This document shows positions 2,519-34,029 of a DNA stretch of 34,029 bases, one piece after another (the stretch's first letter is position 1; each line of letters begins with the position of its first letter). A program made the position numbers and the translations under genes. The stretch is from assembly GCA_029260215.1 (NCBI GenBank), contig JAJDDQ010000002.1:1-34029 (forward strand). Direction: 5' to 3'. Source of the DNA: Phycisphaerae bacterium (GTDB lineage Bacteria > Planctomycetota > Phycisphaerae > UBA1845). The notes below the pieces were generated by a model. The model was not told the DNA's origin. It searched no databases and saw only the letters and a program-made list of their open reading frames with translations.

Positions 2519-2641
2519 GGATTCTCTGTGTCGAATTTTACAGGCGTGACGAATATTTAGCTTGTGAGTTTCATGTGAAACCGGTAGCTTATCGGTCGCT
2601 GCAAGGGGTTGCCGCAAAGATCAACATCCGGAGGTTGTTTC

Positions 2642-8343: not shown

Positions 8344-8724
8344 TCGCCCGCATTGGGAGTGCTGCTTGCCCCGAGGTTTTGTGTTTCGTGAAGTGGGGTG
8401 GCGCATTTATGCATGGAGGCAAGTCGTAGCGGATGAAGGCGCGTTCATCGTTGCGGCAGCCAAACACCTCCGTACACAAAGCTGCGATCGGACTCGTAAG
8501 GTTTTTTGGGCATCGGTTTTTCGATGCGGCGCGGCAGTAAACGAGTTCTGTTTGGAGTGGCGTCTGATCGGTAACCATCCAAACGAGTGTAGGTTGAATG
8601 TTAATGGCTTCGCGCGCTGTGTGCGGGGTCGTCGGTGATATGCGATTTGGGTTGTACGTCACAATAATGAGACCGCGTGGACCGCATGACGCACGCGAAG
8701 GAATTCACTGGAGGTCTAAGTAGA

Positions 8725-17244: not shown

Positions 17245-17408
17245 AGGTGTAAATGTCTGAAATGTACTGCTCAGAACGGATTCGACGTGATGGCGATGTG
17301 GTGCTCCGCAAGGCGGGGTGCGTGGGTCGGCGTTGCGGATGAGTTTGGTTTGAGTGGTTGCTACTTTTAATGAGGTTAGCAAAGAAGTCTATTCGGAGGC
17401 CCGTGGTA

Positions 17409-20400
17409 ATGAGATCTGATTCGAATGGTTGTTGTGGAAGCATGAGGTCCGCTTGGCGATTGGCCTTGTGCGGTCTCGCTGTGGCGATGGTTTTCGGCGT
17501 ACAAGCCGATCGTGCATCAGCCCAAACAGAAGAAGGGGCACTAACGGTAGTGCCAACAGCAGAGCTGCAAAGCCCTGTTGCAACGCAGCCCGGCGGGAAG
17601 GTGAAGGTTACGACCGATTCCGCACAGTCTGCCCAGCGTTCGCAGCAAATCATCCGCAAGGGTGGGGGTGTTGTCGAGCAGGCTCCCGAGGGGCCAGCGC
17701 CGGCCAACGATCTTTGTGCGAATGCCATCGACATTTTCGATGGCTTGAACGCAATCGATACGACGGGCGCGCTTACCGATGGTGTCGGTCATCCTGGGAC
17801 CGGTTGCGAGTACATGACTGACGGTGGCCAGTTGTCGTTAGACATCTGGTTCGACTATTCTGCCACATGCTCGGGTATTCTCACGCTCAGCACGTGCAAC
17901 GATGGCGATCCCGCGACTGGCGATTCCACCTTCGATAGCCGCTTGGCGCTCTATGACTGTGGTGGCGCGGGCACTGCCTGTGACACGCTGCCTTGTCCGC
18001 CGACCGCCACCGAATTGCTTGAATGCAATGATGATGGCCTTGGTTGTGCTGGCTTTTCGTCGATTCTGACCACTTCCGTGGTCATGGGCAACGAGTACCG
18101 CGTTCGCGTTGGTGGATTCAATGCTGCCGCCTTCGGAACTGCAACGTTGTCCATTTCGTGTGTGCAATCCGTATGCGGCGATGCGTCTTGTGGCGTGGGC
18201 GAAGATGTCTGCAACTGCCCGGCCGACTGTGGTGCGCCTGCGGTGGACGAAAGCGGCCTTTGTGCCGACGGCATGGACAATGACTGTGACGGCGACATCG
18301 ATTGTGCCGACACGGATTGCCAGGTCGGAACGGAGTCGTTGTGTGCGGATGGTATCGACAACGATTGCGACGGAATTATTGACTGTTTCGACGTCGATTG
18401 TGTCGCTGCCACCCCGGATTGCGACGGCCCGTGCAACGAGTCTGGTGCCAATTGTCAGCCCTTCGACCTCGCAAACGCGACGGTTTCCGATACAACATCC
18501 CAGACCACTGCCGACAACTTCCTGCCGGATGCGGCTGGCTCGATTTCGAGCGTCTGCTTCTATGGTGCTTACCTTCCGGCGGTAGTCTCCCCGGATGCGT
18601 TCCAGATTACATACTACGCAGACGCCGGTGGAATCCCGGGTGCCATCGTTGGTGGCCCCTTCGTCCAGGGTGTAGACCTCGTCGTGAGCGCCCCGTTTGA
18701 TACGGGTCAGCTTGTTGCGGGCCTTGCCCCGATTCAGGAATACACCGCTACGCATGCTGCGGTTGCCGTCACGACTGATTGTCACTGGATTGAGATCACG
18801 AACGACGTGGTCACTTGGTTCTGGCAGGATTCGCTTGATGGCGACTTGACGGAAGTCATCGATATTGGTGCGACCGGATACGACGTTGGCGACATTGACA
18901 ACACCAACGACCGTGCGTTCTGCCTCGACATCACGCACAACGACACTGGCTGCTTCGTCAGTGCTCCTGAAATCTGCAACGACGGCATCGACAACGATGG
19001 TGACAGTCTTGTGGACTGTGATGATGTTGTCGACTGTGCAGCCGACCTGAACTGCCAGCCCCCGGCCAACGACGATTGCGTCGCCGCGGTTGTGGTAGGC
19101 GATGGTGATTCGGCGTTCGACACCACCAACGCCACACTTGACGGCACGGCTCCTGTTGCGTGTGACCCCAACCTGACCGAAGACGTCTGGTTTGTTTACA
19201 CCGCCACCTGCAACGGTTCGGCGGTCGTCGGAGCCGGTTGTAACGACTTGGCGGCTGATGAACCCGATACGGTTGTCGAAATCTTCGGCGAAGGCACCTG
19301 CCCGCCGGCAACATCCATCGGATGTGCAGACGACAATTGTGGTAACGGCTCAGGATTTGCCGCCGAAGCAACGGGCGCGGTGGTCATGGGCAACGATTAC
19401 CTCATCCGTGTCAGCGGATTCAATGGTAGCGACGAGACAGGCATACTCAGTATCGCCTGTGTGGCTGACGGCGCCTGTTGCGACGATGCGACGGCCACCT
19501 GCAACGATCCTGTTTCCGCTGCCGCGTGCCCCGCTCCCATGCGTTTTTCGCCGGGCGAGACATGCATGACGCAGGATCCGCAGTGTGGCACCAGTGCTTG
19601 CTGCCTGCCGGACGGTACGTGTCAGAATGTTCTGGACGCGACGGCCTGCACGACCATCGATGCGGACGGCCAGTTCCGTTTGGGACTTTTCTGCAGCGAC
19701 ACGACTTGTAACGCTGCCGATGATTGCGATTTCGACAACGGAGCGCCGACTGCTGACGCCAACGGCCTGATTAGTCAGTACGACCCGGTGGCCATGGACT
19801 ATGTCGAAGCCGCCGATGACTTCATCCTCAAGGGCACGCCCAACGGTTGCGACATCGACAGCCTCACATGGTTTGCCGCTTACGGTCCTTGTGACGCGCT
19901 TGTTGATCCGACGTGCCTCGGCGATCCCTCTGACTGGGACGCGATCCGCGTTGTGATCTACAACGACGGCGAAGATGCAGGCGACAACAAGCTGATCGAG
20001 TCGCTCGACTGCGGATCGCTGCTCATTCCGGACAACGACAATCAGCTCACCTGCACCGTGGACGCGGATTGCGTCGATGGCGGCACGTGTGTGGACTCTG
20101 ATGGCGACGGCATTGACGACAGTTGTGGTGCCGAATGCGACATTGTTGTTAGTGCAATGAACACCATCGATGACTTGGATGTGGATCTCCTCATCGCCCA
20201 TACGTTCCAGGGTGATGTGACTGCCCGCCTGACGCACCTCAACACAGGTACGTCCATCCAGCTCATCAATCAGCCCGGACTTTGTGGAGGTGCCAATGCA
20301 TTCGGCTATGGTTCCGCCAACTTTGGTGATCCGATCGGACAGGCTCCTGCGGACAATCTGATCCTCAGTGATGAAGCCCTGTTCGGGATTGATGTTTACG

Positions 20401-21947
20401 GTGGATGTCCGGGTGCCGGCGGTATTGCGGACTTCGCAGGACCGGCCCAGCCGACCGAGCCGCTGGCCGCGTTCAATGGCGAGACCAAGGAAGGCACGTG
20501 GCGTATCACGGTCGTCGATGCGGAAGTTACTGGAGCGGACTCGGGTACGCTGATCAACTGGTCGTTGCACTTCAACAACGCCCCGTCAGCACCGAAGGGT
20601 CCGACTGGAAACCCGGTTGTCGATGGAATGGGTATTGCCGACGGAACACACACCGGCACGCCTGCTCCGAAGGTCGACATCACGACCACCAATTACACGT
20701 TCGTCGCGGGTCCGGTGGCCGACACGTGGGAGATCCTGATTGATCTCTCCGCTGAAGGCATCACCCTCGACAAGAACAAGAAGAACTGGTTGGCAGTCTC
20801 GGCTGAGCATGACGCAGCCGTCGGCGTTGTCGGCTGGATGTTCTCGCAGACGTCGAACAATAACGACGCCCAGCAGTACAACGGCGCCATCCCAGCGGGT
20901 TGGGCACCGACCGGTACGGACTTGGCGTTCGTTCTCAACGGCACAAAGGAGATGACCGGATCGAGCTGCCCGAACTTCCTCACGGAAGAGTGTGCGGACC
21001 TTGTCGACAACGGCACGTTGCTGCCGGGAGCAGACGGCACGACCGACGATGTTTGCGTCTGGTGGCAGTGTGGCGAGGGTACGTGCATCGGCGACCCGAC
21101 CCAGCCTTGCGACTCGGACGGCGACTGCGGCGGCGCGCCTGGTTCGTGTGTGCCCAGTGCTCCGGACGCCTGCTTGGCTGTTGCGTTGACCGAGCCGTCT
21201 GATATGGGTGGTGGATTCGGCAATTGTGAGCCGGACGGTTTCTGCAACAACTCCGACATCAACCATGCGTTGTTGGCCTTTGCCACGGCGAACCCGTGTC
21301 CTGGCATTAACATTGACGCAGGCAGCCCGTTTGGTGCATGCCCGCCGGATGGCTTCAGCAACCTGTTTGATGCCAACCACGCAGGTGCCTGTTTCGCGAC
21401 AGTAAACGCCTGCAATTGCAGTGGCGGCCCCGCTCCGGAGATCGGACCGAATGTTGTTGGTGGTACAGGCCTGGCGCTCGAAGCCAGCAACCGTACGGTG
21501 CGTCGCGGTGCGACCATCCAGGTTCAGGCGTACATCAGCAATCCGCTGGCCGCTTTGAGCGGATACCAGGTACACACGGGTGTGACCGGTGGTCGCAGCG
21601 GCTCGCTTGACTTGGTGGACGTGTCGATCGCGGATCGCGACGACAGCGTGTTCGCCAAAGCCAGTGGCGTGTTCGACGCTTTCAACGTGGACAACAGTCA
21701 GGTACTCAGTGGTCTGCATTACGGCAGCGGTGCTGTCGCGACGGCGGGCAAGGGTTATCTGGCCACGTTCACTTATCGTGTATCCAATGATGCGGTTGGT
21801 ACGTTCGTGATCGACATCCTGCACAACGAGGCCGCCGGCGACCAGACGTTCCTGGTTGGCGCGACCGATCGTGACAAGATCGAAATCACAAGGACGACCC
21901 CGGCTGTTGTTGTTGTCACTTCGGGTGCTTCACGAAGCATCCGTTAG
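17409..21947 (+). CDS. Giant secreted protein C: CUB/PPC-like repeats, MopE-like motifs, P-domain, dockerin, cohesin-like end
   Basis: ATG 17409 is chosen for GGAGG at 17395-17399; the 1512-aa product starts with a signal peptide cut near ASAQ. Parts in order: beta-sandwich 1 (about 99-252, ANDLCANAIDIFDG to LSISC); MopE-like metal motifs CADGMDNDCDGDIDC and CADGIDNDCDGIIDC (about 285-340); a further beta-domain; a third MopE-like motif (about 520-545); beta-sandwich 2, paralogous to 1 (about 552-690); GACC/CCLPDGTC units; a P-domain as in proprotein convertases (about 905-1060), without any protease; a dockerin-like pair (about 1264-1337, CEPDGFCNNSDINH and CPPDGFSNLFDANH); and a cohesin-like domain to the end, closing TTPAVVVVT...SRSIR. 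It is probably a surface or matrix protein. The C-terminal module recurs in protein F. Confidence 0.85.
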   Translation: MRSDSNGCCGSMRSAWRLALCGLAVAMVFGVQADRASAQTEEGALTVVPTAELQSPVATQPGGKVKVTTDSAQSAQRSQQIIRKGGGVVEQAPEGPAPANDLCANAIDIFDGLNAIDTTGALTDGVGHPGTGCEYMTDGGQLSLDIWFDYSATCSGILTLSTCNDGDPATGDSTFDSRLALYDCGGAGTACDTLPCPPTATELLECNDDGLGCAGFSSILTTSVVMGNEYRVRVGGFNAAAFGTATLSISCVQSVCGDASCGVGEDVCNCPADCGAPAVDESGLCADGMDNDCDGDIDCADTDCQVGTESLCADGIDNDCDGIIDCFDVDCVAATPDCDGPCNESGANCQPFDLANATVSDTTSQTTADNFLPDAAGSISSVCFYGAYLPAVVSPDAFQITYYADAGGIPGAIVGGPFVQGVDLVVSAPFDTGQLVAGLAPIQEYTATHAAVAVTTDCHWIEITNDVVTWFWQDSLDGDLTEVIDIGATGYDVGDIDNTNDRAFCLDITHNDTGCFVSAPEICNDGIDNDGDSLVDCDDVVDCAADLNCQPPANDDCVAAVVVGDGDSAFDTTNATLDGTAPVACDPNLTEDVWFVYTATCNGSAVVGAGCNDLAADEPDTVVEIFGEGTCPPATSIGCADDNCGNGSGFAAEATGAVVMGNDYLIRVSGFNGSDETGILSIACVADGACCDDATATCNDPVSAAACPAPMRFSPGETCMTQDPQCGTSACCLPDGTCQNVLDATACTTIDADGQFRLGLFCSDTTCNAADDCDFDNGAPTADANGLISQYDPVAMDYVEAADDFILKGTPNGCDIDSLTWFAAYGPCDALVDPTCLGDPSDWDAIRVVIYNDGEDAGDNKLIESLDCGSLLIPDNDNQLTCTVDADCVDGGTCVDSDGDGIDDSCGAECDIVVSAMNTIDDLDVDLLIAHTFQGDVTARLTHLNTGTSIQLINQPGLCGGANAFGYGSANFGDPIGQAPADNLILSDEALFGIDVYGGCPGAGGIADFAGPAQPTEPLAAFNGETKEGTWRITVVDAEVTGADSGTLINWSLHFNNAPSAPKGPTGNPVVDGMGIADGTHTGTPAPKVDITTTNYTFVAGPVADTWEILIDLSAEGITLDKNKKNWLAVSAEHDAAVGVVGWMFSQTSNNNDAQQYNGAIPAGWAPTGTDLAFVLNGTKEMTGSSCPNFLTEECADLVDNGTLLPGADGTTDDVCVWWQCGEGTCIGDPTQPCDSDGDCGGAPGSCVPSAPDACLAVALTEPSDMGGGFGNCEPDGFCNNSDINHALLAFATANPCPGINIDAGSPFGACPPDGFSNLFDANHAGACFATVNACNCSGGPAPEIGPNVVGGTGLALEASNRTVRRGATIQVQAYISNPLAALSGYQVHTGVTGGRSGSLDLVDVSIADRDDSVFAKASGVFDAFNVDNSQVLSGLHYGSGAVATAGKGYLATFTYRVSNDAVGTFVIDILHNEAAGDQTFLVGATDRDKIEITRTTPAVVVVTSGASRSIR

Positions 21948-21966
21948 TTCAAGAAAGAAAGAGTGC

Positions 21967-21992
21967 GGGGCGGGCCTGTGCGGGTCCGCCCC
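21967..21992 (+). terminator. GC-rich hairpin after protein C, weak terminator
   Basis: GGGGCGGGCC (21967-21976) pairs with GGTCCGCCCC (21983-21992), with one G-U pair and a 6-base loop. There is no T-tract, so it may be a rho-dependent or attenuating hairpin rather than a classic terminator. Confidence 0.45.
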
Positions 21993-22069
21993 TCCTCTCC
22001 CGGTACGATCTGTTTTGGCGTACTCGTTTGTGGGGATCAATTATGAGGAATTGTGGAAAGGAACGAGGC

Positions 22070-25000
22070 ATGAGTTTTCTCAAGAAGTGTTGTGTATGTA
22101 CATGTGTGCTGAGCCTGTCAGGACTGGCAGCGCTCGGTCAGGAAAACCCGCGTGCGTTTTTGTCGCGCCCGGGTGAAGAAGGCGGTCAGCCCACTTCGGG
22201 CAATACCAGCCTGTCCATGAATGCTGGCGAAAATGCCGTCATTCATGCGTTCGTGGACGGTACGGGTGATGCCCAGGAGCTTCAGGGCTATCAAATGGTT
22301 TGGCGCGACGTTGCGACGCCGCAGGCGGGTGCCACAGGAACGGTAAGCTATCGTGACTTGCCGAACTTCACGTTCCCTCAGCCTGGTCCGCCGCCCTTGG
22401 CGAACAGCAATACGGTGAATTTCGATTTGGGGAATGGCAATCCTGCCCTCAATTGCACCGGGCTTGGCGCGTTGACCACGACCGAGATTCTCGGAGGCAC
22501 GAACGTTAATGGCTTTGGCATGATCCAATCCAATGGCAGCCTGTTCATTGGTTGTGCTGTGCCTGGCATCGCGTACCTTGGCGAATTCGAGTTCACGGCG
22601 TCGCCGGATGCGTGCGGCACGTTTGTGCTTGATTGGGTTCCCAATGGCGGCGTTCCGAGTGGTGGTACCGGACTCACGATCGCTTCGGGTCTTGAGTATG
22701 TCCTGGGCACCAGTGATCTTCAGAGTCTGACGATCACCGTTGGTGGCGGCGATGACTGTGCCGCGCCGAACATGGCCAGCGATGGCACGAACAGCTACAC
22801 CAACACCTGTGCGACCGAAGATGGTACGGATACCTGTGACGCCAGTGGCGACACGTGGTACTCGTACATGGCGACCTGCACCGGTACGCTCAATGTGACG
22901 TCCAACGGAACGGCGATCCCGGCTGTCTACGACACGGCGAATGCATGCATGGCCAGCGATGGCAACAGCATTCTTTGTGGAAACGGTGATGCAGCCGGTC
23001 TGGTCAGCGCAGGCCAGACGTACACCATCCAGCTCAACGGAAGCGACAACAACACGTTCGACGTCACTTGTACGGCGGCGTGCAACATCGGCGACACTTA
23101 CTCGGCTGGCGATGCATCCAACCAGCTCGTTCTCGATTGTGTCGACAACTCGGGACTTACCGATGGTGTCGATGTCGACCTCCAGTGCACCGATATCGCT
23201 TGTACCGCTTCGGGCTGCATCTTCAGTGCCGGCAGCTCCGCTTGTTCTGACGGCGACGTCTGCACGCTCACAGATAGCTGCAGCGGCGGACCTCTTGGAG
23301 CTACTGGTGGTGCCAGTTGTGCGGGTAGCAATATCAATACTTGCAACGACTTCAGCGACTGCACGGCCGACAGCTGCGACGACGCCAACGGTGGCGACGG
23401 CTGTGCCAATGCGGATCTCAATGGCGCTGCCTGCACCCCCGGTGCGGCTGGCGACATGTTCTGCCAGTCAGGTGGCAACCTGAGCGCGTCCTGCTCCGCA
23501 GGCGGCACTTGCGATTGCACCTCTGGTGTGAGCACGTGCTGTGATAACGCTCTGTGCCTGGACGTCCGCAATGCGGGCGACCGTGTTGGTGGTCCTTCTT
23601 GCGAGACCGATGCGGATTGCATGGGTGGTTTGAGCTGTGTTGATACCGACATGGATCCGATCAACGGCAACAGCATCTGCGTTGACCAGGCTTGCTACAA
23701 TCCTGGTGAGCAGATCATCGTCGATGTCGAATTTGGTAATGCGACCGAGGTCATCAACGGCGCCCTCAACGGTGCTTGTGGTGCTCAGTTGTTCCTGGCC
23801 TACGACAACACGACGTTGGATCTGAAGAGCGTCGAGACCGATCCCGACGGCGAATTCAACTGGGGCTTGGTCCTTGTGAACATCGCCAACGAAAGTGCCG
23901 GCGAAATTGATCTCGCTCTGGGTCTGCCGGTTGGTACCACCTGTGGTGGTGCGAACATGACGGTCACGGGTGGCACGATCGTCCGCTTGACGTTTAACTC
24001 CATCGCCGACTGCAAGAGTGGTGGCGTTTGGTTCCGCGGTCACAATCCGCCGACCAAGGTCTCCGGTCCCAAGGGTGGCATCAATCTCCAGCCGTGCTCG
24101 AACGACACGGTCACCGACGAGATCGACGTGAATCCGGCTCCGGAGTGGAGCTGCCCGCCGAACATGGATCTGGATTCGGATTGCGGAAGCAATCTGGCCA
24201 CGATCGATATCGATCCGATCTCGGCGAACGATGCCTGTGATCAGGTCTCCGATCCGGGTGCGGATTGCACGATCTCCTACTCGCCCGCTTGCACCGATTC
24301 GCTGGATTGCGAATTGGGTGATCTGTGTGCGGACGGCAACGATTGCGGAAGCGGAATCTGCATCGCGGACGGCTTGGCGGCTGGCTTCAACGGTGGCACC
24401 TGCACCGGTGCCTGCACCGGCTTCTGCGAGGTCACTGCCTGTGTCGATGGTCTTTGTGCCAAGTCGATCCAGTTGCCGGGTCTTACCGACATCCTTAACG
24501 GTGGCGTGCATAGCCTGCCGCCTGGACAGGTTTCGATCAGTTGCTCGTCGACGAATAGCTGTGGCCAGACCGGCTCGTGCGATTCGACGATCAGCAACAG
24601 TGGTTTGAACCGTCTGTGCATCGATGTCGAAATGTCGCCGTCGATGGCTGCCGGCTCTGCCAACAACACGATCGATCGTTGTGTTGACTTTGAGCTGAGC
24701 ATTTGCGATGACAATGGCCAGACGACTGTCCATGCGTTCTCGCAGTTGATCACGTTCGGTGCTCCGTTCAACATTCCGGGTCACGGCTCAACCTGTGTCA
24801 AGGTTCCGCCGGCGAACTGGACTTGCCTGACGGCCAAGGATCCGAAGCATTCGCTGACGTCAACTTGCTTCATCGAGTGCGTTGATGATGAGTATCGGGC
24901 TGAGTTCAAGGGCTCGCCGACCACGAATCCGCTTTGCCACTGGTTGATCCAGGGTAACGTGGATCAGGACGAGCGCATTGACATCTCCGATTACACGATC

Positions 25001-25411
25001 CTCGCCGGTCAGTACCTGCAGGTTCTTGGCAACGACACGCCGTGCAAGAACGAAACCCCGATGGGCAACAACTTCCATTCCGATCTCAATGGAGACGGAT
25101 TGGTCACGTTGGCCGACTTCACGTTCGTGATCTTCAACTTCTTCGAGCTTTCGAAGGATGCATGCGACGTCATCTGCGGCGGTTCGCCGGCGCCGGTGAA
25201 CGTTCCGCAGTCTGAAATCACGGTTCGTGAGCTGACGGCTCGTGGCTTGGGTGAGTATGCTCAGGCTGCTGACGTGAACGGCGACGGCAAGGTCAACCTG
25301 ACCGACGTCGGCCTGTTCCTCGAGGTCAATGGTGGCAACGACACCCTGACCCGCGACCTCAAGGACGCGGTTCAGAATCGCGCCGCTTCGAGCTCGAACA
25401 GCCTGCGCTAA
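22070..25411 (+). CDS. Giant secreted protein D: two cohesin-like domains, Cys-rich centre, dockerin-like C-terminus
   Basis: ATG 22070 was chosen over upstream starts because AAAGGAA lies six bases before it and it gives a compact signal peptide (MSFLKKCC to ALGQ). The 1113-aa protein has an N-terminal cohesin-like domain (about 25-225, with LQGYQMVW and GEFEFTASPDACGTFVLDW), a beta-sandwich like those of C (about 228-335), a Cys/Asp-rich zone (about 336-520), and a second cohesin-like domain (about 544-680, GEQIIVDVEF, LFLAYDNTTLDLKSV). Then come more Cys-rich sequence and dockerin-type calcium loops: NVDQDERIDISDY and DLNGDGLVTLADF (about 962-1025), and DVNGDGKVNLTDV (about 1066). It ends SSSNSLR. 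It is a probable extracellular scaffold. It lies between C and the strong terminator at 25442. Confidence 0.85.
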   Translation: MSFLKKCCVCTCVLSLSGLAALGQENPRAFLSRPGEEGGQPTSGNTSLSMNAGENAVIHAFVDGTGDAQELQGYQMVWRDVATPQAGATGTVSYRDLPNFTFPQPGPPPLANSNTVNFDLGNGNPALNCTGLGALTTTEILGGTNVNGFGMIQSNGSLFIGCAVPGIAYLGEFEFTASPDACGTFVLDWVPNGGVPSGGTGLTIASGLEYVLGTSDLQSLTITVGGGDDCAAPNMASDGTNSYTNTCATEDGTDTCDASGDTWYSYMATCTGTLNVTSNGTAIPAVYDTANACMASDGNSILCGNGDAAGLVSAGQTYTIQLNGSDNNTFDVTCTAACNIGDTYSAGDASNQLVLDCVDNSGLTDGVDVDLQCTDIACTASGCIFSAGSSACSDGDVCTLTDSCSGGPLGATGGASCAGSNINTCNDFSDCTADSCDDANGGDGCANADLNGAACTPGAAGDMFCQSGGNLSASCSAGGTCDCTSGVSTCCDNALCLDVRNAGDRVGGPSCETDADCMGGLSCVDTDMDPINGNSICVDQACYNPGEQIIVDVEFGNATEVINGALNGACGAQLFLAYDNTTLDLKSVETDPDGEFNWGLVLVNIANESAGEIDLALGLPVGTTCGGANMTVTGGTIVRLTFNSIADCKSGGVWFRGHNPPTKVSGPKGGINLQPCSNDTVTDEIDVNPAPEWSCPPNMDLDSDCGSNLATIDIDPISANDACDQVSDPGADCTISYSPACTDSLDCELGDLCADGNDCGSGICIADGLAAGFNGGTCTGACTGFCEVTACVDGLCAKSIQLPGLTDILNGGVHSLPPGQVSISCSSTNSCGQTGSCDSTISNSGLNRLCIDVEMSPSMAAGSANNTIDRCVDFELSICDDNGQTTVHAFSQLITFGAPFNIPGHGSTCVKVPPANWTCLTAKDPKHSLTSTCFIECVDDEYRAEFKGSPTTNPLCHWLIQGNVDQDERIDISDYTILAGQYLQVLGNDTPCKNETPMGNNFHSDLNGDGLVTLADFTFVIFNFFELSKDACDVICGGSPAPVNVPQSEITVRELTARGLGEYAQAADVNGDGKVNLTDVGLFLEVNGGNDTLTRDLKDAVQNRAASSSNSLR

Positions 25412-25441
25412 TCGCGTAGGGTCCCGTAAGGGAAGACATCC

Positions 25442-25488
25442 AAACGGCGTGCGGTGCCCACGGGGGCATCGCACGCCGTTTCTTTTTT
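25442..25488 (+). terminator. Strong rho-independent terminator after protein D
   Basis: AAACGGCGTGCGGTGCCC (25442-25459) pairs with 25464-25481 over 18 positions with one G-U pair and a 4-base loop, followed by CTTTTTT. It ends the D transcript. The rest of the gap to 25739 shows no gene and no clear promoter. Confidence 0.93.
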
Positions 25489-25739
25489 GGGACACTGGCG
25501 GAGAGGTTCTTTTGGGACGTTGGTCGGTAACGATTGGGGACGGATGAACTTGTGGATTTGGGCTGATCGGCCTTGCGATTGGGTGGCGAATTCGGTATCA
25601 TTAGCCCTGCTGTCCCTTTGGTCGTGCTCGGCGCGGGGGTGCCAGGTCTCTAGTCGGCCAAGTTCCGAAATTACTCTTCGAGAGGAATTGCGTCGGTGAT
25701 TGTCCGACGTGGTTATGCGGGGAAAGGAAGCACATCTTG

Positions 25740-28700
25740 ATGGCTAAAAGAGGGGTTTACGTCACGATCGTTGGCGTGGCATGGTTGATGTGTGCGGAAG
25801 CGTGTCTCGCCCAATGCACCAGCGATCCAGACTGCGATGACGCTGTTGCATGTACGGTTGATCGTTGCACTATTCTTACGGGAGTGTGCACCAACACGGC
25901 ATTCGATTCGTTGTGCACCAACAACATCTTCTGCGACGGTGCTGAGCGTTGCGATGCCATTCAGGGGTGCCTGCCGCCCTTGTCGCCGGTGATTTGCAGC
26001 GATGGTGTGCCATGTACGGTGGATACCTGCGACGAGGCCAATAGCACTTGCGTGAGCACGCCAAACGACGCGTTGTGTGATAACACCTTGTTTTGTGATG
26101 GCATTGAAACATGCACGCTTGCGGGATGTGTGGCTGGTACGCCGATAGCTTGCGGCGACGGCATTACATGTACGATCGATACATGCAACGAAGGCACGGA
26201 TTCTTGTTCGAACAGCCCGACTGACAGTTTTTGCAACGACTTTCAGTTTTGCACGGGCACCGAGAGTTGTAACCCGAGCGATCCTGGTGCAGATCCAACA
26301 TCCGGCTGTCTTGCCGGGACGCCTGTCGCTTGTAACGACGGCATTGCCTGCACACAGGATACGTGCAACGACTTTATCGACACGTGCGAGTTTTTTCCAA
26401 ACGACTTGCTTTGCGACAACGGTATTTTTTGCGACGGTATTGAGGCGTGCGATGTGAACACGGGCTGTGTCATCATTTCGCTGCTCGACTGCGATGACGG
26501 CATAGCGTGTACGGTTGACACGTGCGACGAGATCAATCAGGTGTGTATCAACACGCCGTCCGACGCTCTTTGTGATAACGGTATGTTTTGCGACGGCGCG
26601 GAGACGTGCGATGCATTGCTCGATTGTCAGGCTGGCGCGGTCGTGAATTGCGATGACGGTGTCGGATGCACGGATGACTCTTGCGATGAGGTTGGGGATG
26701 CGTGCGTGAACGCCGCGAACGACGGTTTGTGTGATAACAGTTTGTTTTGCGACGGCGCGGAGACGTGCGACCCGTTGCTGGATTGCCAGTTGGGAATAAC
26801 CGTCAATTGTGACGACGGAGTCTTGTGTACGGTTGATTCATGCGACGAAGTGAACGACGTCTGTTCGAATCTCACGGACGACGTGTTTTGCGACAACGGC
26901 ATCTTCTGCGACGGGGCGGAGGTGTGCGACTCGGTGCTTGATTGTCAGTTCGTTCCGGCTGTTGATTGTAACGACAACGTGGGTTGTACGGTTGATTCGT
27001 GTGACGAAGTGAACGACACGTGCGTCAATACTATTGCAGACGCGCTGTGTGATGACGGACTGTTTTGCACGGGTGTCGAGACCTGTGACCCGGTTTTGGA
27101 TTGTCTGGCAGGCGGGAATCCGTGTCCTGGATTGGCCTGCGATGAGCCCTCAGGCCTGTGCGTGCCATGCACTGTGGATCCGGAATGTGACGACGGGCAG
27201 TTTTGCAACGGTTTGGAAACGTGTGTGGCTGGTGCCTGCATTGCGGGTGTTCCCGTAGTTTGCGACGACGGTATCGGATGCACACTCGATTCCTGCGACG
27301 AATTCGCGGATGTATGCGTTAATGCGACAAACGACACGTTGTGCGACAACGGCTTGTTCTGTGACGGTGTGGAGATTTGCGACGTACTGCTGGATTGCCA
27401 ACCGGGTCCGGCGGTGAATTGCGATGACGGCGTGGGTTGTACGACGGTGGATGTTTGCGATGAAGTGAATGACGTTTGCGTGAATACGCCAAGCGACGCA
27501 TTTTGCGACAACGGCCAGTTTTGCGACGGCGTCGAGACGTGCGACAGCATCCTGGATTGCCTCGCGGGCGTTGTGGTCAGTTGTGACGATGGGGTTCCGT
27601 GCACGGATGACAGTTGCGACGAGATTGGCAACATTTGCGTCAACGCGCCGAACGACGGGTTGTGTGACAACGGTCAGTTTTGTGACGGTGTGGAGACGTG
27701 CGACGCGGTTCTGGATTGCCAAGCCGGAACGCCGGTCAATTGTAGTGACGGAGTGAGTTGTACGAGTGACCTGTGCAATGAGACGATTGACGCATGCACG
27801 AATATGGCAGCTGATGTCCTGTGTAACGACGGGCAGTTTTGTAACGGGGTTGAAACGTGCGATGCGGTGCTCGATTGTCAGCCGGGGGTTGCGCTGACCT
27901 GTGACGACGGTGTCGCGTGTACCACTGATTCTTGCGACGAAATCGGGGACCAGTGCCTCAACATCCCGGATAACACGGCGTGCGATAACGGCTTGTTCTG
28001 CGACGGGGCTGAAACGTGCGATGCTGTGCTTGACTGTGTGGCTTCGACTTTTACATGTGACGACGCTGTTGGTTGTACCGTGGACACGTGCAATGAAACG
28101 ACGGATGTCTGCATTTTCACGCCGGTGGACGGTTTGTGCGACAACGGTATTTTTTGCGACGGGGCTGAGACGTGCGATTCGTTGCTTGATTGCCAAGTGG
28201 GAATCCCCCTTACATGCGACGATGCCGTGGTGTGTACAATCGATTCGTGCGATGAGTTGAACGCCGTTTGTGTGAATACGCCGGACGACACAGCCTGTGA
28301 CAATGCGGCATTTTGCGATGGTGTGGAAACGTGTGACCCGCTGCTCGATTGTCAATCCGGCGCGCCTGTTGATTGCAACGACGCCGTAGCCTGCACGATC
28401 GATACGTGCGATGAAGTCAACGATGTGTGCGCCAATACGCCAAGCAACGGGCTTTGCAATACGGGGCTGTTCTGTGACGGGAACTCCATTTGTGATGCGG
28501 TCTTGGACTGTCAGGTCACGGCGCCGCCCTGTAACGACGGCAATGATTGCACGACGGATGTGTGCGACGAAGGCACGGACTCCTGCATTTTTGTGCCGAT
28601 AGCGGGTTGTCAGGAGTGCATTGTTGACGGTCATTGCGATGATGGAATTGCCTGCACGCTTGATGAGTGCATCGGCTCGAGTTGTGTCAACACCCCGCTG

Positions 28701-30239
28701 CACAGTTCATGCGACAATGGTCTGTTTTGTGACGGTGCGGAGCTATGTGATACTTTGCTCGGTTGCCAGGCTGGCGACGCGACGATTTGCGATGACGGCA
28801 TCGCATGCACGACGGATGGGTGCGACGAGTCGACCGACACATGCATACGCACGCCTAATGACGCGTTGTGCGCAAACGGCCTGTTTTGTGATGGTGTCGA
28901 AGTCTGCGATCAATTTTCAGGTTGCGTGGCAGGCCCCTCACCGTGTGACGACGGCGTGGCTTGCACGGTGAACGCGTGCAATGAGTTTACTGACACGTGC
29001 ATCGTCCAGACGGTCGACAGTTATTGTGACAACGGTGTATTCTGCGACGGTATCGAAACGTGTCATCAGTTTTTCGATTGCGAACCGGGGCCCTTGTCTT
29101 GTGATGACGGCATCGACTGCACGGCTGACACCTGCAATGAGGCGACTGACGGATGTACGAACACGCCGCTGGACGGGTTGTGTGATGATGGTGTTGTGAT
29201 CAACGGTACGGAGATTTGTGACCCCGACCAGGGTTGCATACCCGGGCCAGCGCCAACCGTCGTTAGTGTTGTAACCGTGGTTCGGCAGGTGCCGAGCGGT
29301 GTGGACACCGCCATCGGCCAGCCGCCGGTGAGCGACGCTGAAATACGCGAAGGCTCTACTTTTGTGGTTGAACTCTGGGCTCAGCAGGCGATGAATCCGG
29401 CGACGCCGCCGATGAGCGGGCTTTGCTGTGCGTTCGTCGACTTGCAATTCGATCCGACATCCGTGTCGTGCCTGAGCGTCGCGCCGGGGCCGGACTACGA
29501 CAGTTTTAACACTGGGACGTGTGTGGCGAGCGGGACGGTTGACGAGTTGGGTGGTTGTACATTGATTGTTGATACGGGTGTGACGCCGGATTGGGTGCGC
29601 ATCTCAACCGTGACCTTGTCAGCCAATGCGACCCAATTTGGTGCGACGATCAACAGTGTTCCGGCGAATACTCCGATCTCCGTCTGTCAATTCGGCAATG
29701 TTGGCGTCAATCAGACTTCGTTTGGCGATGTGACGTTTAGCATTCGAACGCCGTGTATTTACGATCTGGATTCGGACGATAGCGTTGGGCCTGGCGACTT
29801 GGCGCTGCTCGCGCCGTGCTGGTTGCGTCTCGACACGGATCCGCTGTGGAATACATTCAGTTGTGCACGAGCGGACTTCGATTGTTCGAGCGTGGTCGAT
29901 CCGGGTGATTTGTCGTTCTTCGCGACGGCTTGGCTGCGGAGTTGCCAAGATCCTCTGATCGTTTTTCCGGCAGGGCCTTGTGGGGTTCCATCGGGGCAAT
30001 TCCTGCCTCCCGCAACACAGGAAATGGTTGAGTCATTTGGGCTTCCGTATCCGATCGATGACGATGATGAGGAAGATCGGGCTGTGCGAAGGCCAGCTCC
30101 TTCAGGCGCGGGCGGTAGCGGAACGATTTCGTTGGATTCTGAAAATGCGGTGCGTCCTGGTTCACGGGTTTCTGAAAAGGGCGGAGGCCGATCGGTCGGG
30201 CTTCGCGGATCAAACAGCTTGGAGGGATTAAAGCGATGA
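25740..30239 (+). CDS. Giant secreted protein E: about 21 eight-cysteine repeats, cohesin-like and dockerin-like C-terminus
   Basis: ATG 25740 has AAGGAAG nine bases upstream and gives 1499 aa with a signal peptide ending ACLAQ. Residues 26 to about 1170 are tandem repeats of about 53 residues, each with cysteines spaced C-x5-C-x4-C-x6-C-x8-C-x5-C-x5-C-x5-C. A typical unit runs CDDGIACTVDTCDE, NTPSDALCDNGMF, CDGAETCDALLDC. Next is a cohesin-like sandwich (about 1173-1340, TFVVELWAQQ, VDLQFDPTSVSCL), then two dockerin-like loops (DLDSDDSVGPGDL and DFDCSSVVDPGDL, about 1341-1400), and a low-complexity basic tail. With some 165 cysteines it should be an exported disulfide-stiffened rod, and the acidic loops suggest calcium binding. 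I know no named family for the repeat. Its TGA overlaps the ATG of F. Confidence 0.88.
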   Translation: MAKRGVYVTIVGVAWLMCAEACLAQCTSDPDCDDAVACTVDRCTILTGVCTNTAFDSLCTNNIFCDGAERCDAIQGCLPPLSPVICSDGVPCTVDTCDEANSTCVSTPNDALCDNTLFCDGIETCTLAGCVAGTPIACGDGITCTIDTCNEGTDSCSNSPTDSFCNDFQFCTGTESCNPSDPGADPTSGCLAGTPVACNDGIACTQDTCNDFIDTCEFFPNDLLCDNGIFCDGIEACDVNTGCVIISLLDCDDGIACTVDTCDEINQVCINTPSDALCDNGMFCDGAETCDALLDCQAGAVVNCDDGVGCTDDSCDEVGDACVNAANDGLCDNSLFCDGAETCDPLLDCQLGITVNCDDGVLCTVDSCDEVNDVCSNLTDDVFCDNGIFCDGAEVCDSVLDCQFVPAVDCNDNVGCTVDSCDEVNDTCVNTIADALCDDGLFCTGVETCDPVLDCLAGGNPCPGLACDEPSGLCVPCTVDPECDDGQFCNGLETCVAGACIAGVPVVCDDGIGCTLDSCDEFADVCVNATNDTLCDNGLFCDGVEICDVLLDCQPGPAVNCDDGVGCTTVDVCDEVNDVCVNTPSDAFCDNGQFCDGVETCDSILDCLAGVVVSCDDGVPCTDDSCDEIGNICVNAPNDGLCDNGQFCDGVETCDAVLDCQAGTPVNCSDGVSCTSDLCNETIDACTNMAADVLCNDGQFCNGVETCDAVLDCQPGVALTCDDGVACTTDSCDEIGDQCLNIPDNTACDNGLFCDGAETCDAVLDCVASTFTCDDAVGCTVDTCNETTDVCIFTPVDGLCDNGIFCDGAETCDSLLDCQVGIPLTCDDAVVCTIDSCDELNAVCVNTPDDTACDNAAFCDGVETCDPLLDCQSGAPVDCNDAVACTIDTCDEVNDVCANTPSNGLCNTGLFCDGNSICDAVLDCQVTAPPCNDGNDCTTDVCDEGTDSCIFVPIAGCQECIVDGHCDDGIACTLDECIGSSCVNTPLHSSCDNGLFCDGAELCDTLLGCQAGDATICDDGIACTTDGCDESTDTCIRTPNDALCANGLFCDGVEVCDQFSGCVAGPSPCDDGVACTVNACNEFTDTCIVQTVDSYCDNGVFCDGIETCHQFFDCEPGPLSCDDGIDCTADTCNEATDGCTNTPLDGLCDDGVVINGTEICDPDQGCIPGPAPTVVSVVTVVRQVPSGVDTAIGQPPVSDAEIREGSTFVVELWAQQAMNPATPPMSGLCCAFVDLQFDPTSVSCLSVAPGPDYDSFNTGTCVASGTVDELGGCTLIVDTGVTPDWVRISTVTLSANATQFGATINSVPANTPISVCQFGNVGVNQTSFGDVTFSIRTPCIYDLDSDDSVGPGDLALLAPCWLRLDTDPLWNTFSCARADFDCSSVVDPGDLSFFATAWLRSCQDPLIVFPAGPCGVPSGQFLPPATQEMVESFGLPYPIDDDDEEDRAVRRPAPSGAGGSGTISLDSENAVRPGSRVSEKGGGRSVGLRGSNSLEGLKR
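25816..29250 (+). repeat. About 21 tandem coding repeats of roughly 160 bp within gene E
   Basis: Units begin at each CDDG/CNDG-type codon cluster. Most encode 52-54 residues. Unit 3 has an insertion (NPSDPGADPTSG). Unit 8 is extended and followed by a half unit near 27106-27260. Unit 10 has one extra residue (CTTVDVC). Unit 17 is short (about 28525-28630). The last unit lacks the FCDG cysteine (VVINGTEIC), like a capping repeat. Protein sequence is tightly conserved while codons (TGC/TGT, GAC/GAT, GCG/GCT) are shuffled between units. Confidence 0.9.
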
Positions 30240-32728
30240 TCAAAGGGGCGTTGAGTGTGGCGTTGATGTTAACGGTCGTGGCGTCTGCGGGGCCGTCGGT
30301 GGTTTGTCCGCCGAATCCCACAGGGCCGACCCTTGTGTTGGTTGAGCCTGTTGTCTTGCAGAGTGCTTCCCCGACGAATACGACGGTCGGCGATCCGCCT
30401 AACGGCATGTCGCAGATTTTCACCGGGCCGTACGTGATTGAATTGTGGGCGACGCTATTTCAGGATCCTTCTTTGCCGGCGGGCGTGGGTTTCACCTGTG
30501 TATTCTCGGATGTCACGTTTACACCGACGGCGACGACTTGCGTCAGCGTTACGCAGTCGCCTTTGTTGACCGATTTTGATACCGGGACATGCGGGCCGAG
30601 CCTGGTTGATGAAGTGGGTGGTTGCAATCTGAGTGATCCCAACGGTGTTGGCGACGCTGACGGAACGTGGGTCAGGGTTGCCACGATCAACATGAACGCG
30701 GATTTCGCCCAGGCGGGGAACGTCGTGTCAGCCGTGGCTGCGTCCACCACGATTTCGGTTTTCGCCTGCGGCAACATGCCCGCGTCTCGCATCTCGTTTC
30801 TGAGCGCGAACTTCGACATTATTCAGCCATGCACCACGTCGGCGCAGTGTTCTGATGGGAATCTCTGCAACGGCATCGAGACGTGCAACTTGGTTTCGGG
30901 CCAGTGCGAGCTGGGCACGCCCGTGGTCTGCATGGGCGGAGACAACTGTAATCCTGCGGACGGCGCGTGCGTGGAGTGTTTTCAGGATATGCAGTGCGAT
31001 GACAACAGCGTGTGCACGTCGAACGTCTGCAATCTTGCGACGTTCACTTGTGAATTCACATCGATCGTTGATTGCAGCGATGGGAACCTTTGCACCCAGG
31101 ATGTATGTAATCCGAGCTTGGGCACTTGCTCGAATCCTGAAATCGATTGCAGTGACGGCAACAAATGTAATCTGGATTCCTGTGATCCCTTAACGGGCGA
31201 TTGCATTCACCGCAATGGCGTGGAAACAAATTTTGAGTTGCGACCCGGTGTGATCGCCGCGAATCTCGGTGAAATCATCACCGTTGACCTGTTCCTGAAA
31301 CCGACGGACAACGCAGCCGTGCTTACGGGCGGATTCCAAGCGGTGGTTTCGTGGGATTCGTCAAAGTTGAGGTTCGACGGGTGGACGGACAGCAGTCCTT
31401 ACAACTGGTTTTTCATCGGATTTCAGGATGATTCGGGAATCGACAACCTCAATGCCGGCTTGAGCAATCCGCCGATCGGATTGCCTGATAGCGACGGCGA
31501 TGTGTTCATTGTGGCGCAGGGGCAGTTCGGGGCACCGGCGGGCATTGGATCGGCCCAGATCCCGTTTGGCGGATTGCTGGCTGCAACATTTCATTTCGAG
31601 GTTCTTGACGTAGCGACGAATTCAATCTCAATCGCGCCGACGGCAGGAACATTTACAACCAGTGAAATCATTTGGGGCGGGGAAGATTTTCGTTGTGAGA
31701 TGAGCGGTTTGCCCTGTGATGGGCTGAACTGGCCCTCGGAGTGCGGTTTTCCGGTTGATACCTGTTCCGCTTTTCCGTTGTTCCTGCCCGCTGGCTGCAA
31801 CATTGCCAATGACTACGGTGAAACACTGGTTCTCGGCCCCTGTGTGACGGTTAGCGATTGTGCGGATCTCGTGGACAACGACGGAATGTGCGTGGGTGGT
31901 CCTCCCTGTCCGCCGGACGGTGCGACCGACAGCAACTGCTTCTGGTTCTCGTGTGATAACAATGCGTGCAACGGAGTCGAGCGTGTCCACGGAGATGTCG
32001 GTGGTGCCTTTGGCGATTGTGCTCTGGATGGTTTTGCCAACCTGTTTGACGCGAACCAAGTGCTCGCGTGCTTCGCAAATGTCAGTGCGTGCGAGGCCAT
32101 CAACATTGATCCAGGAGGGCCGTTCGGTGCGTGCGACCCCGACGGTTTCTGCAACCTTGCGGATGCGAATCACGCGTTGTTGGCGTTTGCCAATCAAAAC
32201 CCCTGTCAATGTCCGCTGGACCTCGTTGGCCCTGCGCCGCAGATGGCGATGGCTGCCGGTGGAGAATCCTCATTGACGCTGGTTGCCGACAGGCGCGTGA
32301 TACGGGCTGGCGAGTCAGTCGATATTGATGTGTATCTGGACGATGCGCAGGAAAATATTCAAAGCTACCAGTTGCACGTTGGTGCCAGTGGCGGTCGTCG
32401 AGGGCAGTTCGAGGTGTCGGATGTGCGCATTGATCAACGGTGGGACAATGTTTTTGGGGCGGAAGGTGACGCTTTCGAAGCGTTCGCGCCGCACAATGGG
32501 CAGATGTTGGCCGGTGTGTACGGCTCGGGCATAGCGACCCCAGGCAAACGCTATCTGGCGACCTTTACGCTTCAGTCTTCTGAGAACGCTGTTGGTCCGT
32601 TTGTAGTGGATTTGCAGCTTGACGGGCAGACAATGATTGTAGCTTCATATACAAGTGAAATCGAAGTTAAGACAACGACACCGGCAGTTGTGGTCGTGAC
32701 GCCGAATCCAGCCAGTTCGCTTCGGTAG
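30236..32728 (+). CDS. Secreted protein F: cohesin-like domains, Cys-rich linker, dockerin-like pair, cohesin-like end
   Basis: ATG 30236 overlaps the stop of E (ATGA) and has GGAGG at 30221-30225, so E and F form an operon with coupled translation. The 830-aa product has a short signal peptide (to about ASA). A first beta-sandwich at about 25-200 resembles the one near the end of E (YVIELWATLFQD, ending SFLSANFDI). A Cys-rich linker follows (about 201-330, CSDGNLCNGIETC, CSDGNLCTQDVC, CSDGNKCNLDSC). A classic cohesin-like domain spans about 328-480 (GEIITVDLFL, AVVSWDSSKLRFDGW). Then come a CADLVDN segment, a dockerin-like pair (about 587-660, CALDGFANLFDANQ and CDPDGFCNLADANH) and a terminal cohesin-like module (about 664-830) ending TTPAVVVVT...SSLR, closely matching protein C. 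Confidence 0.87.
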   Translation: MIKGALSVALMLTVVASAGPSVVCPPNPTGPTLVLVEPVVLQSASPTNTTVGDPPNGMSQIFTGPYVIELWATLFQDPSLPAGVGFTCVFSDVTFTPTATTCVSVTQSPLLTDFDTGTCGPSLVDEVGGCNLSDPNGVGDADGTWVRVATINMNADFAQAGNVVSAVAASTTISVFACGNMPASRISFLSANFDIIQPCTTSAQCSDGNLCNGIETCNLVSGQCELGTPVVCMGGDNCNPADGACVECFQDMQCDDNSVCTSNVCNLATFTCEFTSIVDCSDGNLCTQDVCNPSLGTCSNPEIDCSDGNKCNLDSCDPLTGDCIHRNGVETNFELRPGVIAANLGEIITVDLFLKPTDNAAVLTGGFQAVVSWDSSKLRFDGWTDSSPYNWFFIGFQDDSGIDNLNAGLSNPPIGLPDSDGDVFIVAQGQFGAPAGIGSAQIPFGGLLAATFHFEVLDVATNSISIAPTAGTFTTSEIIWGGEDFRCEMSGLPCDGLNWPSECGFPVDTCSAFPLFLPAGCNIANDYGETLVLGPCVTVSDCADLVDNDGMCVGGPPCPPDGATDSNCFWFSCDNNACNGVERVHGDVGGAFGDCALDGFANLFDANQVLACFANVSACEAINIDPGGPFGACDPDGFCNLADANHALLAFANQNPCQCPLDLVGPAPQMAMAAGGESSLTLVADRRVIRAGESVDIDVYLDDAQENIQSYQLHVGASGGRRGQFEVSDVRIDQRWDNVFGAEGDAFEAFAPHNGQMLAGVYGSGIATPGKRYLATFTLQSSENAVGPFVVDLQLDGQTMIVASYTSEIEVKTTTPAVVVVTPNPASSLR

Positions 32729-32757
32729 AAGCCGTTCGCTGGAATCAGAGACTTGTT

Positions 32758-32794
32758 TTCGGGCCGGTGTGCATAGGAAGCGCACCGGCCCGAA
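32758..32794. terminator. Long GC-rich hairpin after protein F
   Basis: TTCGGGCCGGTGTGC (32758-32772) pairs with GCGCACCGGCCCGAA (32780-32794) with one wobble and a 7-base loop. It lacks a T-tract in either direction. It most likely ends the E-F transcript or stabilises its 3' end. Confidence 0.55.
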
Positions 32795-33021
32795 ATTGTG
32801 CGCGTGGTGAATCCGATTATGCCGGTCAACAGAGTTCATTCATGCTTGCGTTCTTGACCCAAATTCGATAACCTCGTGGGGTAAGTTTCAGGAAGGGTGC
32901 GATCGCGTTTTCCAAAGGCTGTACGCGCTCCACACCCGTTGGCAAATGAGGTGCCTCGGTGTCTCAAGGTGCAAGAGTGTGCTGGTTGTGTATGCTCCAC
33001 ACTATTTCGTGAGTCAATTCC

Positions 33022-34029
33022 ATGAAAAGCGTGACAACAAATCTTTCGGGCTTCGTCGCATTGTGCTGCATTGTGTTGGCAATGGTTGCGGGCCCTGTGG
33101 CGGCGGTAGTGGTCAACATCGATTTCTCGACCGACGATGGCGGATTGCTTGTCGCCAACGGTCAGCGCGTCGAGTCACCGCAGCCTGATCCCTGGGCCGA
33201 CTATTTCATCATCACATCGACGGGCAACAATCTCGGTGCGACGATCTTTGACACGACGATTGGTGGCCCCAATGCTGCGGGCCCCGATTTCGACTTGCTT
33301 GTCGATTCGGGGAATATCCTGATTCTGCAGGATAATGTATCGCCCGCGATCTTCGGCGGCATATTCACCACGCCCGACGATTCAGGGATCGGCGGCAACA
33401 TCAATATCGATTTTTCGCCCGCGGTCGGCTTTGTGCGCGTGGTTGACGTTGATGTAGTCGATCGCGATGCCAACGGTGTGGTGATGATCACGCTGACCGA
33501 CTCGGCTGCGTTGACGCGGATGGTCACTGTTCCGGCGGAATTCACCGGTGAGGTACCAACTGATATCGGCATCGCCATGGTCGATCTGAGCTCTGGAATG
33601 CCGACGGAATCGCCGAATATCCCAGGCTTGTTCACCTCGGTTGTAACGGACCCGGGTTTTGATGGTGACGATATCGTTGGCCTCGATTTCCTGTTCCTGG
33701 GCTCGGGTGGCATTGATAATTTTCAGTTTGAGATCGTCGAATGTCTTGATTCCGGCGATTGCGACAACACCGACCCCTGCACCACGACCACGTGCAATCT
33801 GATTGGCGAATGTCAGTCCGATCCTGTTGATTGTTCAGGGTTAGACACTGCCTGTGAAACCTTCTCGTGCTCTCCGGGCGGGCTGCAAGGCAATTGCGAT
33901 GTCGTCACACCGATCGTGTCGTGTCCTGCCGACACGCTTTGCGAAACATTCGCGTGCAACCCGACCACGGGTGCCTGCGACGCGACTTCGATTGTGACGT
34001 GCCCGACTGACACCGCCTGTGAGACATTT
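33022..34029 (+). CDS. Secreted protein G, truncated at the window end
   Basis: From ATG 33022 the frame stays open to the last base (336 codons), so the 3' end is missing. A signal peptide (basic start MKSVTTN, hydrophobic LCCIVLAMVAG, cut near VAA) leads into a beta-rich domain of about 220 residues with no cysteines (VVNIDFSTDDGG, FTTPDDSGIGGN, VVDVDVVDRDANG, GSGGIDNFQFEIVE). Cys-rich repeats of about 27-31 residues follow from about residue 245: CDNTDPCTTTTCN, then DTACETFSC, DTLCETFAC and DTACETF, each closed by a VxC or IVxC turn. These differ from the E repeats (four cysteines, CETF core). The N-terminal domain resembles planctomycete surface proteins that often carry a sorting signal, but the C-terminus is not visible. 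Only a weak ribosome site is present. Confidence 0.82.
   Translation, partial: MKSVTTNLSGFVALCCIVLAMVAGPVAAVVVNIDFSTDDGGLLVANGQRVESPQPDPWADYFIITSTGNNLGATIFDTTIGGPNAAGPDFDLLVDSGNILILQDNVSPAIFGGIFTTPDDSGIGGNINIDFSPAVGFVRVVDVDVVDRDANGVVMITLTDSAALTRMVTVPAEFTGEVPTDIGIAMVDLSSGMPTESPNIPGLFTSVVTDPGFDGDDIVGLDFLFLGSGGIDNFQFEIVECLDSGDCDNTDPCTTTTCNLIGECQSDPVDCSGLDTACETFSCSPGGLQGNCDVVTPIVSCPADTLCETFACNPTTGACDATSIVTCPTDTACETF

Follow-up and report, generated by a model that had tools for sequence, protein, structure and literature searches.

Modules of proteins C to F

The stretch of DNA described here, hereafter the window, is an entire contig (C2) of 34029 bases from a source genome of 4.97 Mb in 88 contigs. 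It carries four neighbouring genes, encoding the proteins C, D, E and F, in which cohesin-like sandwich domains occur together with dockerin-like repeats. The C-termini of C and F are formed by a common cassette, consisting of a cysteine-rich dockerin-like repeat pair (the Cys pair) followed by a GG-type, or X-type, cohesin-like sandwich. Relatives of the cassette identified by name all belong to a single Phycisphaerae metagenome-assembled genome (MAG), OFTM5 (29 loci), from which we infer a Phycisphaerae origin of the window DNA. The N-termini of C, D, E and F are Sec-like, as judged by eye, and the proteins are probably secreted; the start codon region of F overlaps the stop of E by 4 bases. 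The genes and the two cassettes are located as follows.

17358..21947, + strand: protein C, a long open reading frame (ORF) of 1529 codons, ending in the cassette
21195..21437, + strand: Cys pair of C (profile A3, built from C and F; E 7.7e-45)
21453..21902, + strand: GG-type (X-type) cohesin-like sandwich of the cassette in C (profile A1, E 3.2e-71, C being a row of the profile; hhalign 87% to accepted cohesins, their loci excluded)
22028..25411, + strand: protein D, an ORF of 1127 codons, adaptor-like, with two cohesins and C-terminal dockerins
25737..30239, + strand: protein E, an ORF of 1500 codons, with long cysteine-rich repeats, then a Y-type sandwich and a dockerin-like pair
30236..32728, + strand: protein F, an ORF of 830 codons, with three sandwiches and a Cys pair
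31988..32242, + strand: Cys pair of F (profile A3, built from C and F; E 4.7e-49)
32255..32725, + strand: GG-type (X-type) cohesin sandwich and C-terminal tail of F (profile A1, F being a row; AlphaFold2; VIA-align)

The C-terminal sandwiches of C and F are homologous (phmmer E 1.5e-30), and that of F is predicted to adopt a cohesin fold. In the AlphaFold2 model of F (24 alignment rows), which has an overall mean predicted local distance difference test score (pLDDT) of 53.5, this sandwich spans residues ∼676–824, with a pLDDT of 83–97 in the 10-residue blocks from 681 to 820. Its best VIA-align match is the cohesin 4uyp (Z 14.6, root-mean-square deviation (rmsd) 2.5, 135 aligned residues, 13% identity), and the majority of the best 50 Foldseek rows and of the best 50 VIA-align rows are cohesin entries. 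The domain also resembles the non-cellulosomal cohesin 2xdh of Archaeoglobus fulgidus (VIA-align Z 12.6, rmsd 3.8, 131 aligned residues), although the latter is archaeal and shares 12% identity. The sequence-only reading had proposed structure prediction as a check of the cohesin-like modules; the outcome bears it out for this domain, the other sandwiches not being confidently modelled.

The remaining modules are located as follows.

20463..20573, + strand: C-terminal part of a proprotein-convertase P-domain in C (PF01483, E 1.6e-4, 22.2 bits against a cut-off of 21)
22193..22741, + strand: N-terminal X-type cohesin-like sandwich of D (phmmer E ∼1e-5 to C and F; profile A1, E 7.9e-47, D being a row; hhalign 70% to accepted cohesins)
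23678..24115, + strand: middle cohesin of D (M-type), with the YD motif kept (hhalign 99.7% to accepted cohesins)
24959..25132, + strand: dockerin type I of D (PF00404, E 1.3e-9, 38.5 bits against a cut-off of 22.9)
25250..25309, + strand: third EF-like loop of D, a second dockerin stretch (Pfam)
29250..29750, + strand: Y-type sandwich of E, cohesin assignment unproven (profile A2; hhalign 30.3% to cohesins)
29742..29966, + strand: dockerin-like pair of E (hhalign 88.5% to true dockerins, with a profile of 3 sequences)
30317..30820, + strand: N-terminal Y-type sandwich of F, cohesin assignment unproven (profile A2 family; hhalign 36.6% to cohesins)
31217..31687, + strand: middle sandwich of F, cohesin-like (hhalign 94.9% to accepted cohesins, 5 rows; no Pfam match)

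Pairwise phmmer comparisons group the sandwiches into an X family (the ends of C and F and the N-terminus of D) and a Y family (E and the N-terminus of F), with the middle domains of D and F standing apart. The reference set for hhalign comprised 14 Pfam-accepted cohesins of relatives. Rows from these reference loci were present in the unfiltered query profiles (9 of 14 for D middle, 4 of 9 for F middle and 2 of 99 for X), which were rebuilt without them. Their exclusion shifted the hhalign values from 100 to 99.7% for D middle, from 94.3 to 94.9% for F middle and from 64.5 to 70.0% for the D N-terminal sandwich, and left Y unchanged; two profiles made as controls from A and B, proteins encoded elsewhere in the window, reached at most 0.7% against the sandwich profiles. 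As some rows are common to both profiles, the match of 100% between the D N-terminal sandwich and the X family does not count as independent evidence. The only clear match between families relates F middle to D middle (92.6%), the X and M profiles matching at just 9.4%. A similarity of the E sandwich to F middle dropped from 80.6 to 29.9% without the reference loci and was withdrawn as evidence, and an alignment mixing the E sandwich with the cassettes contained obvious misalignments, so that no folding was based on it. The middle domain of D matches the Pfam cohesin family with E 0.0058 (17.3 bits, under the cut-off of 24.1). Sequence searches of the PDB with D and with the cassette profile gave chance-level matches only.

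Within C to F, the PF00404 cut-off is exceeded in D alone. The dockerin-like pair of E has no Pfam match in the window, and its OFTM5 homologue reaches only E 0.22. The earlier assignment of cohesin-like and dockerin-like modules to each of C to F is retained for the C-terminal sandwiches of C and F, for both cohesins of D and for its dockerins, on the evidence of phmmer, hhalign, Pfam and AlphaFold2. For E it stands in part, the dockerin resting on the 3-sequence hhalign match and the sandwich being unproven as a cohesin. The N-terminal and middle sandwiches of F are modules that it had not listed. Its observation that both partner module types lie inside the same neighbouring, probably secreted proteins is upheld.

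The C-terminal cassette

The Cys-pair profile, built from C and F, has 25 matches in the source genome, 23 of which are strong, and the X profile has 36. Each of the 23 strong Cys pairs is followed by an X domain 12–108 nucleotides downstream; the 2 weak Cys pairs are not, and 13 of the 36 X domains have no preceding Cys pair. In all 22 unbroken ORFs the cassette is C-terminal, with a 28-residue extension in one; two of the ORFs run off the 5′ end of their contig. One further copy (L146, contig C15 of the source genome G000, 1299–2626) is split over two frames by a frameshift or an assembly error. A signal-like N-terminus, recognised by a crude pattern, is present in 18 of the 20 cassette ORFs with an available start. 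Several ORFs contain multiple X domains, the one of the cassette itself included: four in an ORF of 1783 aa on contig C53, three in one of 760 aa on C84, and two each in ORFs of 1997 and 985 aa on C84, 853 aa on C73 and 760 aa on C53. These ORFs with two to four X domains have a scaffold-like layout.

The two modules of the cassette diverge together, with Mantel correlations between Cys-pair and X divergence of 0.57 in the source genome and 0.46 in OFTM5, which none of 2000 permutations reaches. A linker motif [GS]P[ASVTM]P is found in 36 of 53 sequences. The C-terminal residue is an arginine, often following a small aliphatic residue, in 17 of 23 cassette ORFs of the source genome and 16 of 24 of OFTM5; among long reading frames in the own-genome stretches, cassettes counted in, 29 of 119 end in arginine. 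D and its homologue end in LR.

The Cys pair was analysed in 49 cassette rows (23 from the source genome and 26 from OFTM5), which remained from 51 after removal of 2 upstream non-cassette matches. Cysteines in columns 17 and 66 are both present in 38 rows and both absent in 11, and those in columns 28 and 55 are both present in 45 and both absent in 4; in neither case does a single cysteine occur. The crossed column combinations do not covary (p ∼0.56). As the rows are paralogues from two genomes, the p-values of the covarying columns overstate significance. In the first repeat, column 17 falls on loop position 8, and column 66 is part of the helix that follows the second loop; columns 28 and 55 form the mirror pair. 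In the simplest reading, two crossed disulphides would join the half-repeats of the Cys pair. Dockerins are twofold symmetric, a property with which such an arrangement would fit.

An alignment of 16 of the 23 cassettes shows invariant cysteines together with EF-like loop residues. In the tandem EF-like loops, both repeats have invariant residues at positions 5 and 12, and only the second has one at position 6 too. Position 9 is occupied by N in 44 of the 49 rows in the first repeat and in 48 in the second, and conservation is absent at positions 1 and 3. An aspartate is found 7 residues upstream of loop position 1 in 43 of 45 rows (column 3) and in 45 of 45 (column 41), and because of this residue the loop is consistent with a seven-residue insertion.

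The proteins that carry the cassette are diverse. A Pfam scan covered 14 cassette ORFs outside the window in addition to C and F, i.e. 16 of the 22 unbroken ones. An M12B reprolysin domain (E 4e-13) with a P-domain was found on L133, a lamin tail domain (LTD, E 1.1e-28) on L134, a GSDH domain on L137, LDL-receptor class B repeats on L135, and Dicty_CTDC repeats with a P-domain on L142. Galactose-binding-like domains occur on several cassette ORFs, some under the cut-off, and 5 of the 14 ORFs beyond the window match no family at E≤0.01. Dicty_CTDC repeats are also found in F, just above the Pfam cut-off, and in E, below it. The cassette is thus a shared C-terminal part of varied proteins, some with enzyme domains. 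In agreement with the sequence-only reading, the Pfam scan finds no catalytic domain in C to F themselves. This does not justify the step to a private polymer built head to tail, because the same cassette is attached to an M12B metallopeptidase and to lamin-tail and GSDH proteins elsewhere in the genome.

Relatives and known systems

OFTM5 holds 26 cassettes. At one of its loci (L081) a 5′-truncated D′, E′ and F′ follow each other in the same order, and E′ and F′ also overlap by 4 bases; the order D-E-F is thus kept in a second genome, which indicates that the locus is a unit. At another OFTM5 locus (L077) a cassette ORF is followed by a second D-like ORF. Across the order, 35 of 114 genomes have matches to the cassette at E≤1e-6, the source genome included. 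Among the matches listed, strong full-length cassettes are found in the source genome (G000), G083 (apparently OFTM5) and G084, and weaker near-full-length ones in G054, G076 and others; many matches mainly cover the sandwich. G083 belongs to the same family, and its equation with OFTM5 rests on match positions and frame lengths that coincide with those at OFTM5 loci. Homologues of the last 278 residues of D are present in 55 of the 114 genomes, again including the source genome, and Y domains in 26, from which it follows that D occurs independently of E and F. A search with the whole of protein F in the genome_contigs collection gave no match; the OFTM5 loci were obtained with the cassette alignment.

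The ordinary counterparts of these modules are also present in the source genome. With 150 of 172 candidates scored, at least 73 dockerin matches at E≤0.01 were obtained, at least 50 of them over the cut-off. Six M-type cohesins, the type of the D middle domain, are found in 5 ORFs. In each of these five the same frame also contains a match to dockerins at E≤0.01, which in three of them exceeds the Pfam cut-off, the two lists having been linked through contig, strand and frame length.

Cohesin and dockerin form one of the strongest types of non-covalent coupling between proteins. Such pairs are mostly known from cellulose degraders, in which adaptor scaffoldins carry cohesins plus a dockerin in one chain. 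The layout of D and the cohesin fold of the F domain resemble such scaffoldins. Unlike in cellulosomes, the second set of modules here is rich in cysteines and of the GG type, and no cellulase is detected by Pfam in the 16 scanned cassette ORFs or in D and E, the ORFs behind the 73 dockerin matches lying outside that scan. A cellulosome survey (PMC11557425) also mentions a planctomycete relative whose scaffoldin has two cohesins.

A closer parallel is the planctosome, a hypothetical cohesin/dockerin peptidase complex of the Nemodlikiaceae (Phycisphaerae) (Andrei et al. 2019, PMC6461901), whose described parts include lamin-tail, P-domain and M12B proteins and an adaptor with dockerin, HYR and cohesin in one chain. 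Likewise, dockerin and cohesin occur here in single proteins, and lamin-tail, P-domain and M12B domains are all found on cassette ORFs, the P-domain also in C. In contrast, cysteine-stapled dockerins, a C-terminal cassette in two dozen copies and counterparts of E and F are not mentioned in the available text of that paper. In the titles and abstract openings of the open-licence papers listed, a cysteine-stapled dockerin cassette is not described. The only NCBIfam dockerin family that touches the Cys pair is NF041540 (GC-type dockerin domain-anchored protein), which at E≤1 matches 6 of 16 cassettes from the source genome (best 1.4e-4) and 3 of 24 sequences of a mostly-OFTM5 set at E≤0.01 (best 3.9e-4).

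Proposed assembly model and alternatives

The preferred reading, on which our judgement is about evenly balanced, is that C to F are secreted structural or adaptor proteins of a planctosome-like, non-cellulosomal cohesin-dockerin assembly at the cell surface, built from two parallel module sets. The canonical set would comprise M-type cohesins with the YD motif and ordinary calcium dockerins. In the second set a disulphide-stapled dockerin-like pair would be directly followed by a GG-type cohesin, and the two together would serve as a standard C-terminal connector on 22 ORFs. Because an X cohesin and an M cohesin are both present in D, together with ordinary dockerins, this protein could bridge both sets, while C and F would plug in via the cassette and E via its dockerin. 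The numbers of modules, with 6 M-type cohesins beside at least 73 ordinary dockerin matches and 36 X cohesins beside 23–25 Cys pairs, fit two such parallel sets.

A more specific and clearly more tentative proposal is that the cassette constitutes a second, orthogonal cohesin-dockerin system. Its putative dockerin would contain two crossed disulphides and a seven-residue loop insertion, and its cohesin GG in place of YD. The cassette would then be a universal C-terminal connector for two dozen proteins, and D would link it to the ordinary system.

Several observations weigh against these assignments. The Cys pair of C and F, called a dockerin in the sequence-only reading, does possess tandem EF-like loops; its assignment to the dockerins by profile fails, however, with no Pfam dockerin match and hhalign values of just 0.1–0.2% to true dockerins, and loop positions 1 and 3 are unconserved, for which reason it is termed dockerin-like only. 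Its pLDDT in the model of F is ∼35–65, and the NF041540 cut-off (29 bits) is not reached in the source genome, the best score being 23.7 bits. As to the cohesins, none exceeds the cut-off of PF00963 in the source genome, in a family in which 32 of 51 genomes contain one above it, and the X type falls from 93.1 to 87.0% to accepted cohesins once the reference loci are excluded. The AlphaFold2 model of D residues 540–1127 (4 rows; mean pLDDT 40) is unusable. In known complexes the YD motif of cohesins contacts the dockerin. At strand 3, where this motif is located, it is present in none of 45 X cohesins and GG is found in 44, so the X cohesins may not bind a dockerin at all. Finally, no HYR domain is detected between cohesin and dockerin of D at E≤10, a domain that the published adaptor of the planctosome contains (PMC6461901).

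A rather doubtful alternative is a role of the cassette as a closed C-terminal domain for sorting or anchoring. The Cys pair would then pack in cis against the cohesin of the same cassette, and the whole would be read by a secretion or attachment machine, without formation of a polymer. The C-terminal domains of type IX cargo, which are recognised by a secretion and surface-attachment machine, provide a comparison. The constant C-terminal position (22/22 unbroken ORFs) on varied cargo, the obligate module order with short gaps in 23/23 strong copies, the linker motif and the frequent C-terminal arginine are all as expected for such a domain, and the fixed order and joint divergence fit a closed unit. 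A pure tag would, in contrast, not need the 13 X cohesins without a Cys pair, several of which stand in tandem in cassette ORFs and one in D; the extra tandem X domains fit pairing in trans. Moreover, the Cys pair is not confidently modelled by AlphaFold2.

It is improbable that C, D, E and F polymerise head to tail as subunits of a single surface layer or fibre, as the sequence-only reading had it. Both module kinds occur in neighbouring proteins, D-E-F order is kept in OFTM5 and C to F lack a detectable catalytic domain, but the cassette is genome-wide with enzyme cargo, D-type C-termini are far more widespread than the Y family (55 against 26 of the 114 genomes), and the sandwiches of E and of the F N-terminus are not securely cohesins. 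Co-occurrence of cohesin and dockerin in one chain is the known layout of an adaptor, as proposed for the planctosome (PMC6461901). Equally unlikely is a role of the sandwiches and loops solely as stalk and calcium-brace modules of large adhesins, with a cohesin fold and no cohesin-dockerin pairing: the X domains lack the YD motif, cohesin folds exist beyond cellulosomes and the fibrillar-adhesin domain 9ifr matches too (VIA-align Z 10.8), but the genome contains ordinary dockerins and five ORFs in which an M-type cohesin is accompanied by a dockerin match, and the module kinds are paired in 23/23 strong cassettes.

The recurrence of the cassette points to a surface protein-assembly kit rather than a single private polymer. 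If the preferred reading is correct, a lineage has fixed a cysteine-stapled dockerin and a cohesin on many unlike C-termini, and the coupling would serve general surface display. The planctosome idea, so far a genome-based hypothesis, would become directly testable, and the cassette could offer an oxidation-stabilised connector for protein engineering.

Some further features of the window and its surroundings may be mentioned. Residues encoded at 25737–29250 form ∼1000 residues of cysteine-rich, Dicty_CTDC-like repeats in E (below cut-off), and the OFTM5 homologue looks alike. Upstream of the locus lie two similar-looking tandem proteins, A (8677–11967) and B (12228–15344), with FG-GAP and PKD-like matches, above the cut-off only in A; their N-termini are lipobox-like by eye. 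A small ORF at 2609–3376 has a C-terminus that looks PEP-CTERM-like by eye, no family search having been made. On the 3′ side of F, gene G (33022–34029) runs off the contig end, and the part present has no Pfam match. In OFTM5 the position of G is taken by a gene with an M-type cohesin at its start (below the Pfam cut-off, E 2e-4 to 7e-4). Candidate hubs of the second module set are the scaffold-like ORFs on contigs C53, C84 and C73 of the source genome (L140, L137, L138 and L134).

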